Shown here in pieces: positions 44,796 to 49,873 of a stretch of 64,000 nucleotides of DNA. Both the position numbers and the translations under genes were made by a program. The notes beneath the pieces were generated by a model. The model was not told the origin of the DNA, did no database searches, and saw only the letters and a program-made list of their open reading frames with translations. Positions within the stretch are counted from its first letter, which is position 1; each line of letters opens with the position of its first letter. Origin of the DNA: Chloroflexota bacterium (GTDB lineage Bacteria; Chloroflexota; Dehalococcoidia; JACPEP01); NCBI GenBank assembly GCA_016183425.1, contig JACPEP010000006.1, forward strand, positions 62,001 to 126,000, given 5' to 3'.

Positions 44796-44871
44796 GCGGG
44801 AGTAACTCAGTTGGTAGAGTCCCTGCCTTCCAAGCAGGTTGTCGCGGGTTCGAATCCCGTCTCCCGCTCCA
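44796..44871 (+). tRNA. tRNA-Gly (anticodon TCC)
   Basis: A 76-base cloverleaf: acceptor GCGGGAG/CTCCCGC, D-arm with AACTCAGTTGGTAGAGT, anticodon arm CCTGC-CTTCCAA-GCAGG with TCC as anticodon, and T-arm GCGGGTTCGAATCCCGT. The discriminator base T is followed by an encoded CCA. It reads GGA/GGG glycine codons. Confidence 0.97.
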
Positions 44872-45178: not shown

Positions 45179-45207
45179 TTGACAAGGTAACAAAATCGTG
45201 ATAAACA
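45179..45207 (+). promoter_or_regulatory. Promoter of the ComQXP-like locus
   Basis: Perfect -35 TTGACA (45179-45184), 17-base spacer and TAAACA (45202-45207) with a TGA before it; the -10 is weak. Predicted start is about 50 bases before the precursor ATG, in an AT-rich leader. Confidence 0.5.
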
Positions 45208-45264
45208 TGTGTACTAGATTAAGCTTGCAAGACGCGGGTAAATCAAAAAAAGGAGGAGGGTCAC

Positions 45265-45480
45265 ATGAGTCTACAGGCAATAAAACATCTGGTGGCCGGG
45301 CTGCACTCTGACAAGGACTTGAAAGACCGCTTTGGGTCAAAACCTGATGAGGTGATGGCTCAGTTCAAGCTGAGTGCAAAGGAAAGAACCGCCATCAAGC
45401 AGGCGCACTTTCGAGTCCAAGCCGACGGCACGCTAGTTCTGAAAGCAGAAGCCGGCACTCTCGATTGGTGGTGGTCATAG
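45265..45480 (+). CDS. Small peptide precursor, ComX-like, C-terminus with three Trp
   Basis: 71 aa. The N-terminal 45 residues look like a helical leader (LVAGLHSDKDLKDRFGSKP, then FKLSAKERTAIKQAH), comparable in layout to ComX pheromone precursors and to Franean1_4349-type RiPP leaders. The end is TLDWWWS, with W68-W70 one residue from the C-terminus. ComX is cut and prenylated on a Trp near its C-terminus by ComQ, and a ComQ-like gene follows directly. A strong AAAAGGAGGAGG ribosome site precedes ATG 45265. The pheromone role is inferred; no cleavage site can be assigned. Confidence 0.75.
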   Translation: MSLQAIKHLVAGLHSDKDLKDRFGSKPDEVMAQFKLSAKERTAIKQAHFRVQADGTLVLKAEAGTLDWWWS

Positions 45481-45484
45481 GCGC

Positions 45485-46477
45485 CTGGAAGTAGTAGGCT
45501 TTGCCAAAGTTGCCACGGAACCGAAAGCCCACCTCAGGGAAGTAAGCGGCGTCGTTTTTCGGGAGATCCAGGTCACGCTGGGCCTGGTAAAAGAGAACAA
45601 AGGCTTACGGAATATTCTTCTGGAGGCGATTCAGGCCCAGGCAGGGGAATCTCTATCGCTGCGTCGCTCCTTTTTAACTCTTATCATCTATCAGTTACTG
45701 GGGGGGCATCTGGAACGAGGCGTACCGGCGGGGGCGGCCATCGAATTCTTTGCTGCCGCCCTGGATGTGTTTGATGACCTTGAGGACCGGGACGCCAAAA
45801 CGGCCCTATGGCGGAAACACGGACAGGCTCAGGCCCTAAATGCGGCCACGGCTTTGCTTATGCTGGCTTACGGGGCAGTAGCGCGCTTGAGGCTGAAGGG
45901 AGTTGACGACTTCACCATCGCCCGAGCTACTGAAACAATAGCCTCCCTGGGCGCTACCGCCTGTGCCGGTCAGCACTACGACCTCGCATGGGAATCAAAG
46001 CCCTTTGTCAGCGAAAGCCAATACTTCAAAATGATCGAGATGAAGTCGGGGTCGTTGATGGAGTGCGCCTGCCGGATGGGTGCCGTCGTGGCAGGAGCCG
46101 ATGAAAAGACGGTGGATTCTTATGGTCTTTTTGGCCGCAACCTGGGTATGGCCGCCCAGATCATGAACGACACGGAGTCAACCCAAGACCGACAGTCGGC
46201 GAAGAGTGACCTTATCAAGAGGAAAAAGACGTTACCGGTTATCTTTGCCTTCAGCCACGCCGAGCCTGAAGATCGCAAGTGGTTGACGGATCTTTATGGT
46301 CAAGATATCCCCATGGAGCCACGCGAAGAACAACGGGTATCCCAAATATTGCAGCGCTGCGGAGCCATCCACTATTCGGTAATTCGGGCCGAGCTCTACA
46401 AGCAAAAGGCAATTCAGTCGCTGAAAGCAGTTTCAGACTCTATCAGGCAGACTCTGCAGGCAGTGCTAAGTATTTGA
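45485..46477 (+). CDS. ComQ-like isoprenyl transferase with no normal start codon
   Basis: Trans-prenyltransferase fold. The first Asp-rich motif is DDLED followed by RD. The second is NDTES (QIMNDTES) and is followed by KSDLIKRKKTLPVIFAF, a form typical of ComQ-type enzymes and not of chain-elongating synthases with two DDxxD motifs. The first ATG/GTG/TTG, GTG 45767, lies immediately before the first motif and would remove the N-terminal helices, yet upstream sequence in frame (RRSFLTLIIYQLLGGHLERGVPAGAAIEFFAAALDV) clearly belongs to the enzyme. The frame is open back to 45443. I place a CTG start at 45485 tentatively (330 aa). Confidence 0.78.
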   Translation: MEVVGFAKVATEPKAHLREVSGVVFREIQVTLGLVKENKGLRNILLEAIQAQAGESLSLRRSFLTLIIYQLLGGHLERGVPAGAAIEFFAAALDVFDDLEDRDAKTALWRKHGQAQALNAATALLMLAYGAVARLRLKGVDDFTIARATETIASLGATACAGQHYDLAWESKPFVSESQYFKMIEMKSGSLMECACRMGAVVAGADEKTVDSYGLFGRNLGMAAQIMNDTESTQDRQSAKSDLIKRKKTLPVIFAFSHAEPEDRKWLTDLYGQDIPMEPREEQRVSQILQRCGAIHYSVIRAELYKQKAIQSLKAVSDSIRQTLQAVLSI

Positions 46478-46503
46478 CCCTGGGTAGCTAAAGCAAAGCA
46501 ATC

Positions 46504-48750
46504 ATGGATGCATACCCTGTTTCTCCCCCTCTTTCTCTGTCCCAGACGGTATGGGAAAAGGTAGCCAGTTGGCTGCTACTAGCTGTCGGGGGTACTGTTG
46601 GCGTCGGCCTCGTTGCTATATTCGTCCTGACCCTCACGACTTCCTACGTTGGCGTTGACCTTGTCTTGCGAAATGGTAAGTGGTATGTCGGTCAGCTAAG
46701 CGAATCCGGTACCGCCGGTCGCGACGGCATAAGGTCGGGAGACGAGGTCATAGCCGTAAACGGGCTAAGCCCAAAGGAAGTCAGCGGTGGCTTGGGCTAT
46801 ATCGGCGCATCACGCGTTCGATCCCTGAAAGTCGTGAATGGCGTCGGTGAGGCCAAGGAGACTGCGACAACCACCGGTCCGGTCCCTGCAGGAGCGCGGC
46901 AAGAGTCTATTGCCATGTTCGTTGTCGGTGCCGCCTTCTGGACGGTGGGGTTCGTTTCTCTGCTCAGGAAGCCGCAATCACGTATAGCCCTATGGCTTTT
47001 CCTAATGAGTCTCAGTGTTGCCGTTGCCCCACTGGTATCCTTGTTACCACTGCGTGGCTGGCTTGAGATACGGCCCCTGGAAGCCGTGAACGGGTTTCTA
47101 GCCCCCTGGCTCATGGTGCGTTTTTTCCTCGAGTTTCCGGCGGAGAAGCGAATCAAACTACTGGGTAAGGACATCACGGACCTCGTTTATCTTCCCCCTG
47201 TGCTCCTCCTAGTGGTGTATGCATGGGTTGGGTACCAAGATTCGGCGTTCTACACCTGGTTTCGGCCGGTGCTCCTTTGGAATCTGGCAACGGGTTTCCT
47301 CTTGGTGATTGGCTTCATCACCCACAGCTACTTGACTGCCTCCTTCGGCAGGTATAAGCAGCAGATAAAGATCGTCGCGGTCGCTGCTGCCATTAGCCTC
47401 TTGCCTTTTGTTATCCTCGCTGTGTTGCCGAATGCCTTGGGCTTGAGTGGTCTCGTCCCGCCTTATATAAGCGTTATTGGTCTCGTTCTTTTGCCTCTTT
47501 CTCTGGGATATGTGATCCTGGTGAAGAACCTTCTGGACATCGATGTGGTGGTTAGCCAGGTAGTATCTCACAGTGCGCTGCTGTTGCCTCCGGTCAGTGC
47601 CAAAATCCAGCAACTGGTTCAGCGTCGGATGAGCAAGGGTAGATACGATTATCGGGAAGCCGCCTCCAGTCTCGTCATGGAGCTCTCGTCACAGACGGAG
47701 CTTGAGCAAGTCTTGCGAGGGTTTGCTTCAAGCGTCAGACGTTTCTTAGGACTTGATGGGGCCTGCGCCTTCGTCGTTGACAGAGAGAAGCCTTCGGTAA
47801 TCGCCGCCGCCTCTGGGATATACGAGGACGACGTGGCTCTAAAACGTCTGGTCATCGGTTGGGCTCGCGCCGTAAGAGATGACCCCGAGCATCAGTTCCC
47901 GAATAAGGCTCCCCCTCAGGCGGGTGTGGCCTTCTTCGTGCCTCTTTTCAGGGGTGAAACCGACGTGGGAATGCTCATATTGAGCCACAAGCTGCCGCCA
48001 TTGGGTTACTCGGTGGACGATGTGTATTTTCTGCTCACTATTCAAAACCCAGCGTCGTTGCTCATTCACAATGCCTTGCTGCTGCACCAGGCGAGGAGGA
48101 ACGCTATAGAGCTTGAGGCAGTTCAGAAAAGCGTCCAAGAATATGCGACTTCTCTGGAAAGAAGCAAGAAGGAGGTGGAACAAGCCTTCTTTAACACTGT
48201 CCGGACGCTTGTCCTGGCGTTGGAAAGCCGAAATCCCTACACGAAGCAGCACTCCGAGCGGGTTGCCCGGCTCGCCCAAAGGATCGGGATGGCCCTGGGA
48301 CTGGCTCCCGAGGATTCGCGCAACCTGGAGATTGCGGGGCTCGTCCACGACATAGGCAAGATAGGGATTCCAGATAACGTCTTGCTCAAGCGAGGGCCCC
48401 TGGAACATCAGGAGAGAGCAGAGGTGGAACTCCATGCGATTAGGGGCGTAGAGATGCTGCGGTTCTTGGGCTTCTTGGCCGAGGTTATTCCCCTAGTCGA
48501 GCACCACCACGAACGGTATGACGGTACCGGGTACCCCCACGGCTTGAAAGGCGCTGCCATACCCCTGGGAGCGCGCATTCTGGCGGTCGCCGATGCCTAT
48601 GACGCGATGACCTCAGAACGCCCTGGGCAGCCCGCCCTCTCGTCAAAAGAGGCGATGGAGAGGCTCAAAGAGGGTGCGGGAACTCAGTGGGATCCGCAGG
48701 TAGTGACGGCATTTCAACGTCTCAACAAGCTGGATAGTGAAGCGACATGA
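46504..48750 (+). CDS. ComP-like membrane receptor with GAF and HD-GYP output
   Basis: 748 aa. One helix (about 22-48), an extracytoplasmic PDZ-like domain (about 50-120, GQLSESGTAGRDGIRSGDEVIAVNG), then seven more helices to about 340, ending KNLLDIDVVV. This membrane half resembles the receptor part of ComP. Next come a linker, a GAF domain (about 400-525), a coiled coil, and an HD-GYP domain with H583, H615-D616, HHHER (667-671) and GYP (676-678). HD-GYP enzymes degrade cyclic-di-GMP. No kinase core is present. It starts 26 bases after the ComQ-like gene. Confidence 0.85.
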   Translation: MDAYPVSPPLSLSQTVWEKVASWLLLAVGGTVGVGLVAIFVLTLTTSYVGVDLVLRNGKWYVGQLSESGTAGRDGIRSGDEVIAVNGLSPKEVSGGLGYIGASRVRSLKVVNGVGEAKETATTTGPVPAGARQESIAMFVVGAAFWTVGFVSLLRKPQSRIALWLFLMSLSVAVAPLVSLLPLRGWLEIRPLEAVNGFLAPWLMVRFFLEFPAEKRIKLLGKDITDLVYLPPVLLLVVYAWVGYQDSAFYTWFRPVLLWNLATGFLLVIGFITHSYLTASFGRYKQQIKIVAVAAAISLLPFVILAVLPNALGLSGLVPPYISVIGLVLLPLSLGYVILVKNLLDIDVVVSQVVSHSALLLPPVSAKIQQLVQRRMSKGRYDYREAASSLVMELSSQTELEQVLRGFASSVRRFLGLDGACAFVVDREKPSVIAAASGIYEDDVALKRLVIGWARAVRDDPEHQFPNKAPPQAGVAFFVPLFRGETDVGMLILSHKLPPLGYSVDDVYFLLTIQNPASLLIHNALLLHQARRNAIELEAVQKSVQEYATSLERSKKEVEQAFFNTVRTLVLALESRNPYTKQHSERVARLAQRIGMALGLAPEDSRNLEIAGLVHDIGKIGIPDNVLLKRGPLEHQERAEVELHAIRGVEMLRFLGFLAEVIPLVEHHHERYDGTGYPHGLKGAAIPLGARILAVADAYDAMTSERPGQPALSSKEAMERLKEGAGTQWDPQVVTAFQRLNKLDSEAT

Positions 48751-48757
48751 GGGAACC

Positions 48758-49873
48758 TTAGGGCTTGTAGTCCGAGGCGTTCTCAAACTGCTCGATGCCG
48801 CCGTAACCGATCCACATGTAGACCCGGGGGTGAACCCCCCAAATCTTGACCGGCTGATCTGAGGTGTTGAACTCCTGGTGGGTGACCCCGATGGGGATAC
48901 ACACCAGATCGCCGGCCTTCCAATTGTAGCGCACCCCGTTCTGGATGATGTAGCCCTCGCCAGAATCTATCCAGTGGAGCTCCTCGTAGAGGTGGCGATG
49001 CTTGCCTGTGTAGCCCCCAGGGGGGATCTCCTGCTGGAAGCAGTCCAGGGTTCGCAGCACCGATTTGCTCCAGGGATGCACGATGTACCTTATCTTTCCC
49101 TGGCAGGTATTCTCCCAGGGGACGGTATCGGCGGGGATCCAGCGCTGGGCCTGCATCCGCCAGCGGTTCTCGTCCGGGATGTCTTTCAGGTAGCGATCGT
49201 AGATGGTCTTGGGTTCCCCTCCGTCCCACCGGGTAACGGCTCGGCGGGCATAGATGATGTCCTGCATCTCCTGGATGATATGGAAGTCGCCCAGGGGCTT
49301 TCCCCGTCGCTGATAGGTCTCGTCTATGTCGAAAAGCTCCATGTCGGCCAGGCCCAGATATTCGAAGATATGGGAGATGACGGTGAGGCCAAATTTGGTG
49401 GGGGGTTCCTTGAAGAAGTGGCCGTGGATGGAGTAGGTGGGGACACACAGCACCCCCTCCCCCTGGCATTCGTAGTGGACGCCGTCCTGCTCTTCGATGT
49501 AAGCGCCGCTGGGGCGAATGAAGCAGGCCTCCATCCAGTGGCGGTGGCAGCCCGAGGCTCCCACTTTGTAGTCGGGCCCCACGGGTTTACCGGCATGGCC
49601 GTGGGCCTCCATAGTGTAGATGGGGAAGTGCATTTCCTCCCACTTTCCCCTTCGCCAGGGGATGAAGACCGCCCGACCCTTGCGCGACGGGCCGCCCTTT
49701 TTATCGGCGGAGGTTCCTTTGGGGCTGGCCACCCCCGGCACATCGGCACAGTGGATGACCCGCGGCAGCTTGGCCATGTGAGCCTTTTCATCATCCCGAT
49801 TGACGTAGACCCATCTTTCGTACTCCTGGGGCTCCTCTTCCCGCTCCCGCAACATCTCCCGCTCGAGTTCCAT
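48758..49873 (-). CDS. Double-cupin protein, dioxygenase-like
   Basis: 371 aa with two cupin barrels. N-terminal metal motif HRHWMEACF and later IHGHF; C-terminal motif KHRHLYEELHW with THQEF. Both barrels keep plausible His/Glu ligands. Bicupins of this type include gentisate-1,2-dioxygenase-like ring-cleaving enzymes, but substrate residues cannot be assigned. It converges with the HD-GYP gene (seven bases apart). The start ATG has GGAGG upstream on its strand. Confidence 0.78.
   Translation of the reverse strand: MELEREMLREREEEPQEYERWVYVNRDDEKAHMAKLPRVIHCADVPGVASPKGTSADKKGGPSRKGRAVFIPWRRGKWEEMHFPIYTMEAHGHAGKPVGPDYKVGASGCHRHWMEACFIRPSGAYIEEQDGVHYECQGEGVLCVPTYSIHGHFFKEPPTKFGLTVISHIFEYLGLADMELFDIDETYQRRGKPLGDFHIIQEMQDIIYARRAVTRWDGGEPKTIYDRYLKDIPDENRWRMQAQRWIPADTVPWENTCQGKIRYIVHPWSKSVLRTLDCFQQEIPPGGYTGKHRHLYEELHWIDSGEGYIIQNGVRYNWKAGDLVCIPIGVTHQEFNTSDQPVKIWGVHPRVYMWIGYGGIEQFENASDYKP

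Follow-up and report, generated by a model that had tools for sequence, protein, structure and literature searches.

How could a bacterium outside the Firmicutes link an extracellular peptide directly to the turnover of a cyclic dinucleotide? This question is raised by a three-gene cassette in a 64,000-nt stretch of DNA (hereafter, the window) from a member of the class Dehalococcoidia, phylum Chloroflexota (JACPEP010000006.1, positions 62,001-126,000; assembly GCA_016183425.1), whose genome comprises 2.7 Mb in 52 contigs. All coordinates are window positions, position 1 being its first letter. The genes lie on the + strand in the order peptide-ComQ-receptor (X-Q-P): a precursor peptide gene (45265-45480), a ComQ-like frame (45446-46477), and a receptor gene (46504-48750). 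A first-pass annotation had proposed this set in this order, and all three genes were found where it had placed them. Judging from the sequence, the locus is probably a self-contained peptide-signalling cassette, in which a prenylated-Trp peptide would act on a receptor with its own HD-GYP output.

The precursor gene encodes 71 amino acids, an NHLP-like leader followed by a core with the C-terminus GTLDWWWS, in which Trp is penultimate. A leader profile was built from 12 other precursors of the family, with the window sequence excluded and the last 8 residues of each removed. With this leader-only profile, the window precursor was the sole match among 602 open reading frames (ORFs) of the window (E=1.8e-12; next best, E=1), indicating that this ORF is more than a product of chance. 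Trp was found at position -1 or -2 in 13/13 family precursors compared to 6% of window ORFs, a count in which the 13 precursors are kin and hence not independent. Only one of them, that of genome G038, has Trp as the very last residue; the window peptide ends in WWWS. Comparison of precursor pairs gave ratios of nonsynonymous to synonymous substitution (dN/dS) of approximately 0.07-0.25, showing that the family precursors evolve under purifying selection.

The first-pass annotation had pointed to the ComX profile (PF05952) as a comparison for the precursor. The Pfam search returned no match to it, and a profile alignment of the precursor with two ComX sequences gave nothing significant. A direct ComX homologue was rejected on these grounds. 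The window precursor matched models of the NHLP clan weakly (scoring 13.5 bits where 40 is the cut-off), while the precursor of a relative (G007) cleared the Os1348 NHLP cut-off (45.3 against 40). The leader thus appears to lie near the NHLP/Os1348 clan, like that of PalX of Paenibacillus.

The ComQ-like frame is open without interruption from 45446 to 46477 and matches the polyprenyl synthetase family (PF00348, E=6.8e-33). We annotate it as a putative Trp prenyltransferase (45485-46477, + strand, with CTG at 45485 as the assumed start). Its first aspartate-rich motif (FARM), DDLED at 45773, is intact. The second (SARM) does not keep both aspartates and is replaced by a pseudo-SARM, NDTES at 46166. 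Bacillus ComQ requires NDxxx or GDxxx at this site to prenylate Trp, and an N-to-D change cuts its activity sharply (PMC5331326). Genuine ComQs encoded on plasmids beside an annotated comX carry NDIQS, NDFDA and GDYHA. The two further synthases of the host genome have second motifs of the DDxxD type.

Whether the enzyme clusters with chain-elongating prenyl synthases, an outcome that the first-pass annotation had regarded as damaging to its proposal, was checked in a tree of 43 rows. The reference sequences were database records; a separate Bacillus ComQ sequence served as search query only and was kept out of the tree. The 22 chain-elongating synthases formed one clade (100/99 support), and every peptide-associated enzyme, including that of the window, lay outside it. 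An AlphaFold2 (AF2) model of the enzyme (pLDDT 77.9, pTM 0.80) has the fold of trans-isoprenyl diphosphate synthases (trans-IDS). The fold search matched all trans-IDS enzymes, the Trp prenyltransferase Ord1 among them, and therefore does not separate Trp prenyltransferases from chain elongators. Lower-ranked matches in a scan of genome contigs were mostly ordinary prenyl synthases from other phyla.

The receptor (748 amino acids, + strand) consists of a first transmembrane (TM) helix, a PDZ-like domain, approximately seven further TM helices, a GAF domain, a coiled coil and an HD-GYP domain, as seen by Pfam, alignment to ComP and hydropathy. Over residues 27-353, the protein can be aligned to ComP of Anoxybacillus (BLASTP E=2e-6; hhalign probability 98%), which bears out the earlier claim of a ComP-like receptor half. 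The hydropathy plot showed seven strong peaks, with one weaker region identified by alignment. In Pfam, the PDZ match was weak (E=0.025), and the matches to GAF (1.2e-5) and HD-GYP (PF13487, 3e-43) confirm that these domains stand in place of the histidine kinase, as proposed, a swap that recurs in other genomes. The HD-GYP domain (48250-48702) has every metal-site motif (HSERV, HDIGK, ELHAIRG, HHHERYDGTGYP and DAYDAM) when aligned to the solved cyclic-dinucleotide phosphodiesterases 5z7c, 4mcw and 4r8z. An AF2 model of the whole receptor was set aside for low confidence (pLDDT 46.8), and no fold search was based on it.

The first-pass annotation would have been contradicted had related genomes lacked the peptide and receptor beside the ComQ-like gene, but they keep both. 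When further genomes of the class were searched with the ComQ-like protein, the three best matches (G038, G007 and G031) all adjoined a receptor of the same build. A small precursor lies beside the ComQ-like gene in G038 (ending PMGGW) and G007 (ending SPEWT); G031 is cut by a contig end. With a profile of the sensor half, 13 strong loci were found among 393 genomes of the class, nearly all pairing the receptor with an adjacent ComQ-like gene and, where the contig reaches, with a homologous precursor that has Trp last or penultimate (other endings include GWF, GWL, GTWS, SNWL, LFWL, LYWL and LWL). The receptor output is HD-GYP in three genomes of Dehalococcoidia, namely that of the window, G038 and G031. 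In the remaining strong class members that were examined, it is a histidine kinase, in some cases with receiver domains. A kinase-type cassette was found in 'Candidatus Dehalogenimonas etheniformans' GP (G199).

The three genes were also observed together in another class of the phylum. In Sphaerobacter thermophilus S 6022T (G702; locus L179, 2370-6865), the precursor ends in IGTLGWWA, the second motif of the ComQ-like enzyme is NDAQD, and the receptor carries both HD-GYP and GGDEF domains. A second Sphaerobacter species (G813; locus L198, 2113-6585) likewise has a ComQ-like enzyme, an HD-GYP + GGDEF receptor and a precursor ending SLGWWS. The window core, AGTLDWWWS, resembles these cores. A single origin of the HD-GYP swap is compatible with 58% of bootstrap trees. 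The cassette thus reaches wider than first described, with kin in Dehalogenimonas and Sphaerobacter.

Within the Sphaerobacter pair, the ComQ-like enzymes share 47% identity, compared to 78% for the precursors and 69% for the receptors. A second genus pair (L149/L151) showed 53% for the enzyme and 86% for the precursor. This lower conservation of the enzyme is possibly a pherotype-like divergence. Several loci depart from the three-gene pattern. In G188, a short ComQ-like ORF (214 amino acids; L152, 6725-7369) lies beside an intact-looking precursor and receptor. G280 has a ComP-like receptor (L148, 3525-5930) with no ComQ or precursor nearby. In Dehalococcoidales STB_92 (L106, 1-3864), genes for a kinase and for a response regulator whose C-terminus is HD-GYP-like sit directly upstream of the precursor gene; this regulator looks like another route to this output, in the manner of RpfG.

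The same class also contains loci of a different kind (L153 in G346, L154 in G180, L157 in G057 and L160 in G011). These loci combine a small peptide ending LPWV, AQWS, AGWI or EAWF with a prenyl-synthase-like enzyme and a ComP-like sensor. Their enzymes have a DDxxD-type second motif, form a clade of their own (100/99), and may be PalQ-like; a HisKA_3-type kinase motif was seen in two of the four sensors. Outside the phylum, an uncultured Firmicutes metagenome-assembled genome (MAG) contains a comQXPA-like locus (L045, 1575-5393) with a 68-amino-acid ORF ending GAGWY, a ComQ-like enzyme (NDSRS), a ComP-like kinase and a response regulator. A 3.1-kb contig assigned to Syntrophaceae UBA7544 (L042) carries a ComQ-like gene and a ComP-like kinase grouping with Dehalococcoidia; either the genes were transferred to Thermodesulfobacteriota or the contig was misbinned.

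How would such a cassette work? The sequence shows the genes and their families, the catalytic motifs, a linkage that is conserved and an exchanged output, and from these we infer the following series of steps. The NHLP-like leader of the precursor would dock on the ComQ-like enzyme, which would move a geranyl or farnesyl group onto a Trp of the DWWWS core, most likely the penultimate-position Trp common to the family. The leader would then be cut off, and the prenylated peptide would exit the cell via steps not encoded at the locus. At sufficient density, this presumed signal would bind its putative partner, the ComP-like receptor encoded alongside, at the PDZ and multi-helix sensor. Binding would alter the receptor's own HD-GYP activity without a kinase or response regulator, and would so shift how much of a cyclic dinucleotide is present, cyclic di-GMP being the most likely one.

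We favor this model because the module is kept in different families of the class as well as in Sphaerobacter, because the leader profile picks out the precursor and the whole family has Trp at -1 or -2, and because the precursors are under purifying selection. The enzyme has the NDxxx pseudo-SARM of genuine ComQs and, like the other peptide-associated enzymes, falls outside the chain-elongating clade. Furthermore, the sensor is ComP-like, the metal-site motifs are intact, and HD-GYP recurs in three class members and, together with GGDEF, in two Sphaerobacter species. Finally, four HD-GYP proteins and a single GGDEF protein, its motif intact, are encoded in the host genome.

A number of observations weigh against the model, and the first of them concern the output. 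The substrate of the HD-GYP domain cannot be read from sequence, and its best match among solved enzymes is 5z7c, a 3'3'-cyclic GMP-AMP (3'3'-cGAMP) phosphodiesterase (E=7.3e-38). In addition, a PilZ receptor gave no match in the host genome. Prenyl-peptide signalling might thus be correct, with the HD-GYP domain acting on another nucleotide (3'3'-cGAMP) or as a protein-interaction module. We consider this unlikely, since the cyclic-di-GMP enzyme PmGH (4mcw) is also a strong match (1.5e-30), the metal-site motifs are complete, the genome has its intact GGDEF protein, and in the Sphaerobacter homologue GGDEF is part of the receptor polypeptide itself.

The second concerns the peptide: no exporter or protease gene is encoded at the cassette locus. 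The product could be a prenylated ribosomally synthesized and post-translationally modified peptide (RiPP) with another role, for example an antimicrobial or membrane-active lipopeptide, that is sensed for feedback or self-protection. The leader resembles NHLP RiPP precursors, and PalX came to light as a RiPP cluster in which a signalling role of the peptide is unproven (PMC10853753). However, genes for immunity, transport or additional tailoring are absent from the locus, and the receptor half resembles that of ComP, a type known to respond to a peptide with prenylated Trp, so that we regard such a role as rather improbable.

The third concerns the integrity of the locus. In the comQ frame, the first ATG, GTG or TTG occurs only at 45767, two codons before DDLED, leaving none ahead of the catalytic core, and the receptor lacks approximately 45 residues including two TM helices (most relatives have about ten helices). 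The locus could therefore be decaying, with the comQ start, two receptor helices and signalling lost. This seems quite improbable considering that the remaining comQ frame is uninterrupted with all motifs, the precursor gene has a strong Shine-Dalgarno sequence (AGGAGG, 45251-45256, + strand, separated from the ATG by 8 nt), and the receptor frame stays open for 748 codons. The start gap would be accounted for by a single base error in the MAG or by a CTG start through translational coupling; likely, comQ starts at CTG 45485, 4 nt past the precursor stop codon, or the MAG has such an error.

The last concern the enzyme. The tree gave no firm branching order among the peptide-associated enzymes, that of the window included, and NDxxx is present in three rows within the chain-elongating clade, for which reason it was rejected as a stand-alone marker. 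An ordinary chain-elongating synthase that merely happens to adjoin a sensor gene and a small ORF without coding function would fit the strongest annotated family, polyprenyl synthetase, and a predicted fold that does not part the two functions, but it is hardly credible and was rejected given the pseudo-SARM, the tree position, the conserved three-gene linkage, the leader profile, and the two DDxxD-type synthases that the genome already has.

The surroundings of the cassette were also examined. It is preceded by a tRNA-Gly gene (44796-44871) and followed by a convergent gene (48758-49873), so that an adjacent ComA is absent. The first-pass annotation had placed one promoter before the cassette, which was not borne out: direct reading gives a promoter-like site (45179-45207, + strand, unconfirmed) with a perfect TTGACA at 45179-45184, a 17-nt spacer and a weak candidate -10 element, TAAACA, matching 3/6 positions, and the consensus scan reported no promoter there.

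The broadest reading is one-protein quorum sensing in Chloroflexota, for which we see even chances: an extracellular prenylated-Trp peptide would directly gate the turnover of cyclic di-GMP by its receptor, and no phosphorelay would be involved, by hydrolysis in Dehalococcoidia and by hydrolysis and synthesis in Sphaerobacter. This would extend isoprenylated-peptide signalling beyond Firmicutes and join a peptide signal and a second-messenger enzyme within one receptor. Cell-to-cell signalling in organohalide-respiring Chloroflexota, if true, would bear on bioremediation. Genome-sequenced cultured members are available for tests, namely Sphaerobacter thermophilus S 6022T and Dehalogenimonas etheniformans GP.

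How does the cassette compare with known systems? The first-pass annotation had regarded comQXP as described in Firmicutes, in line with a 2014 census of comQXPA that found none elsewhere (PMC4008528). In the literature consulted, largely open-access, we found no report of a ComQ locus in Chloroflexota or of ComQ/ComP loci with an HD-GYP output. Like comQXPA of Bacillus and other Firmicutes, the window has adjacent genes for a ComQ-type enzyme with FARM and N/GDxxx pseudo-SARM, a small precursor with Trp near its C-terminus, and a ComP-type PDZ and multi-helix sensor. Unlike comQXPA, it belongs to Chloroflexota, its precursor has no detectable homology to ComX, its gene order is X-Q-P rather than comQ-comX-comP, its output is GAF + HD-GYP instead of a HisKA_3 kinase, and no ComA lies alongside.

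Among characterised systems with an NHLP-type precursor, PalX-PalQ-PalP of Paenibacillus alvei comes nearest (PMC10853753). It has a Trp prenyltransferase resembling trans-IDS enzymes, to which a membrane sensor is linked, as is predicted for the window, whose precursor may likewise be of the NHLP type. However, PalQ retains both SARM aspartates and requires Trp as the last residue, and PalP is a histidine kinase, whereas the window enzyme has NDTES, its Trp is penultimate, and its output is HD-GYP. In the RpfC/RpfG system, a fatty-acid signal acts through a phosphorelay to a separate response regulator ending in an HD-GYP phosphodiesterase. This diffusible-signal-factor system of Xanthomonas is named in PMC8895600. 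The window pathway likewise would start from a diffusible signal and end in HD-GYP, but here receptor and HD-GYP are one protein. Thus, while the window system fails defining features of both the comQXP and the PalXQP families, it appears to work like comQXP with a PalX-like precursor.

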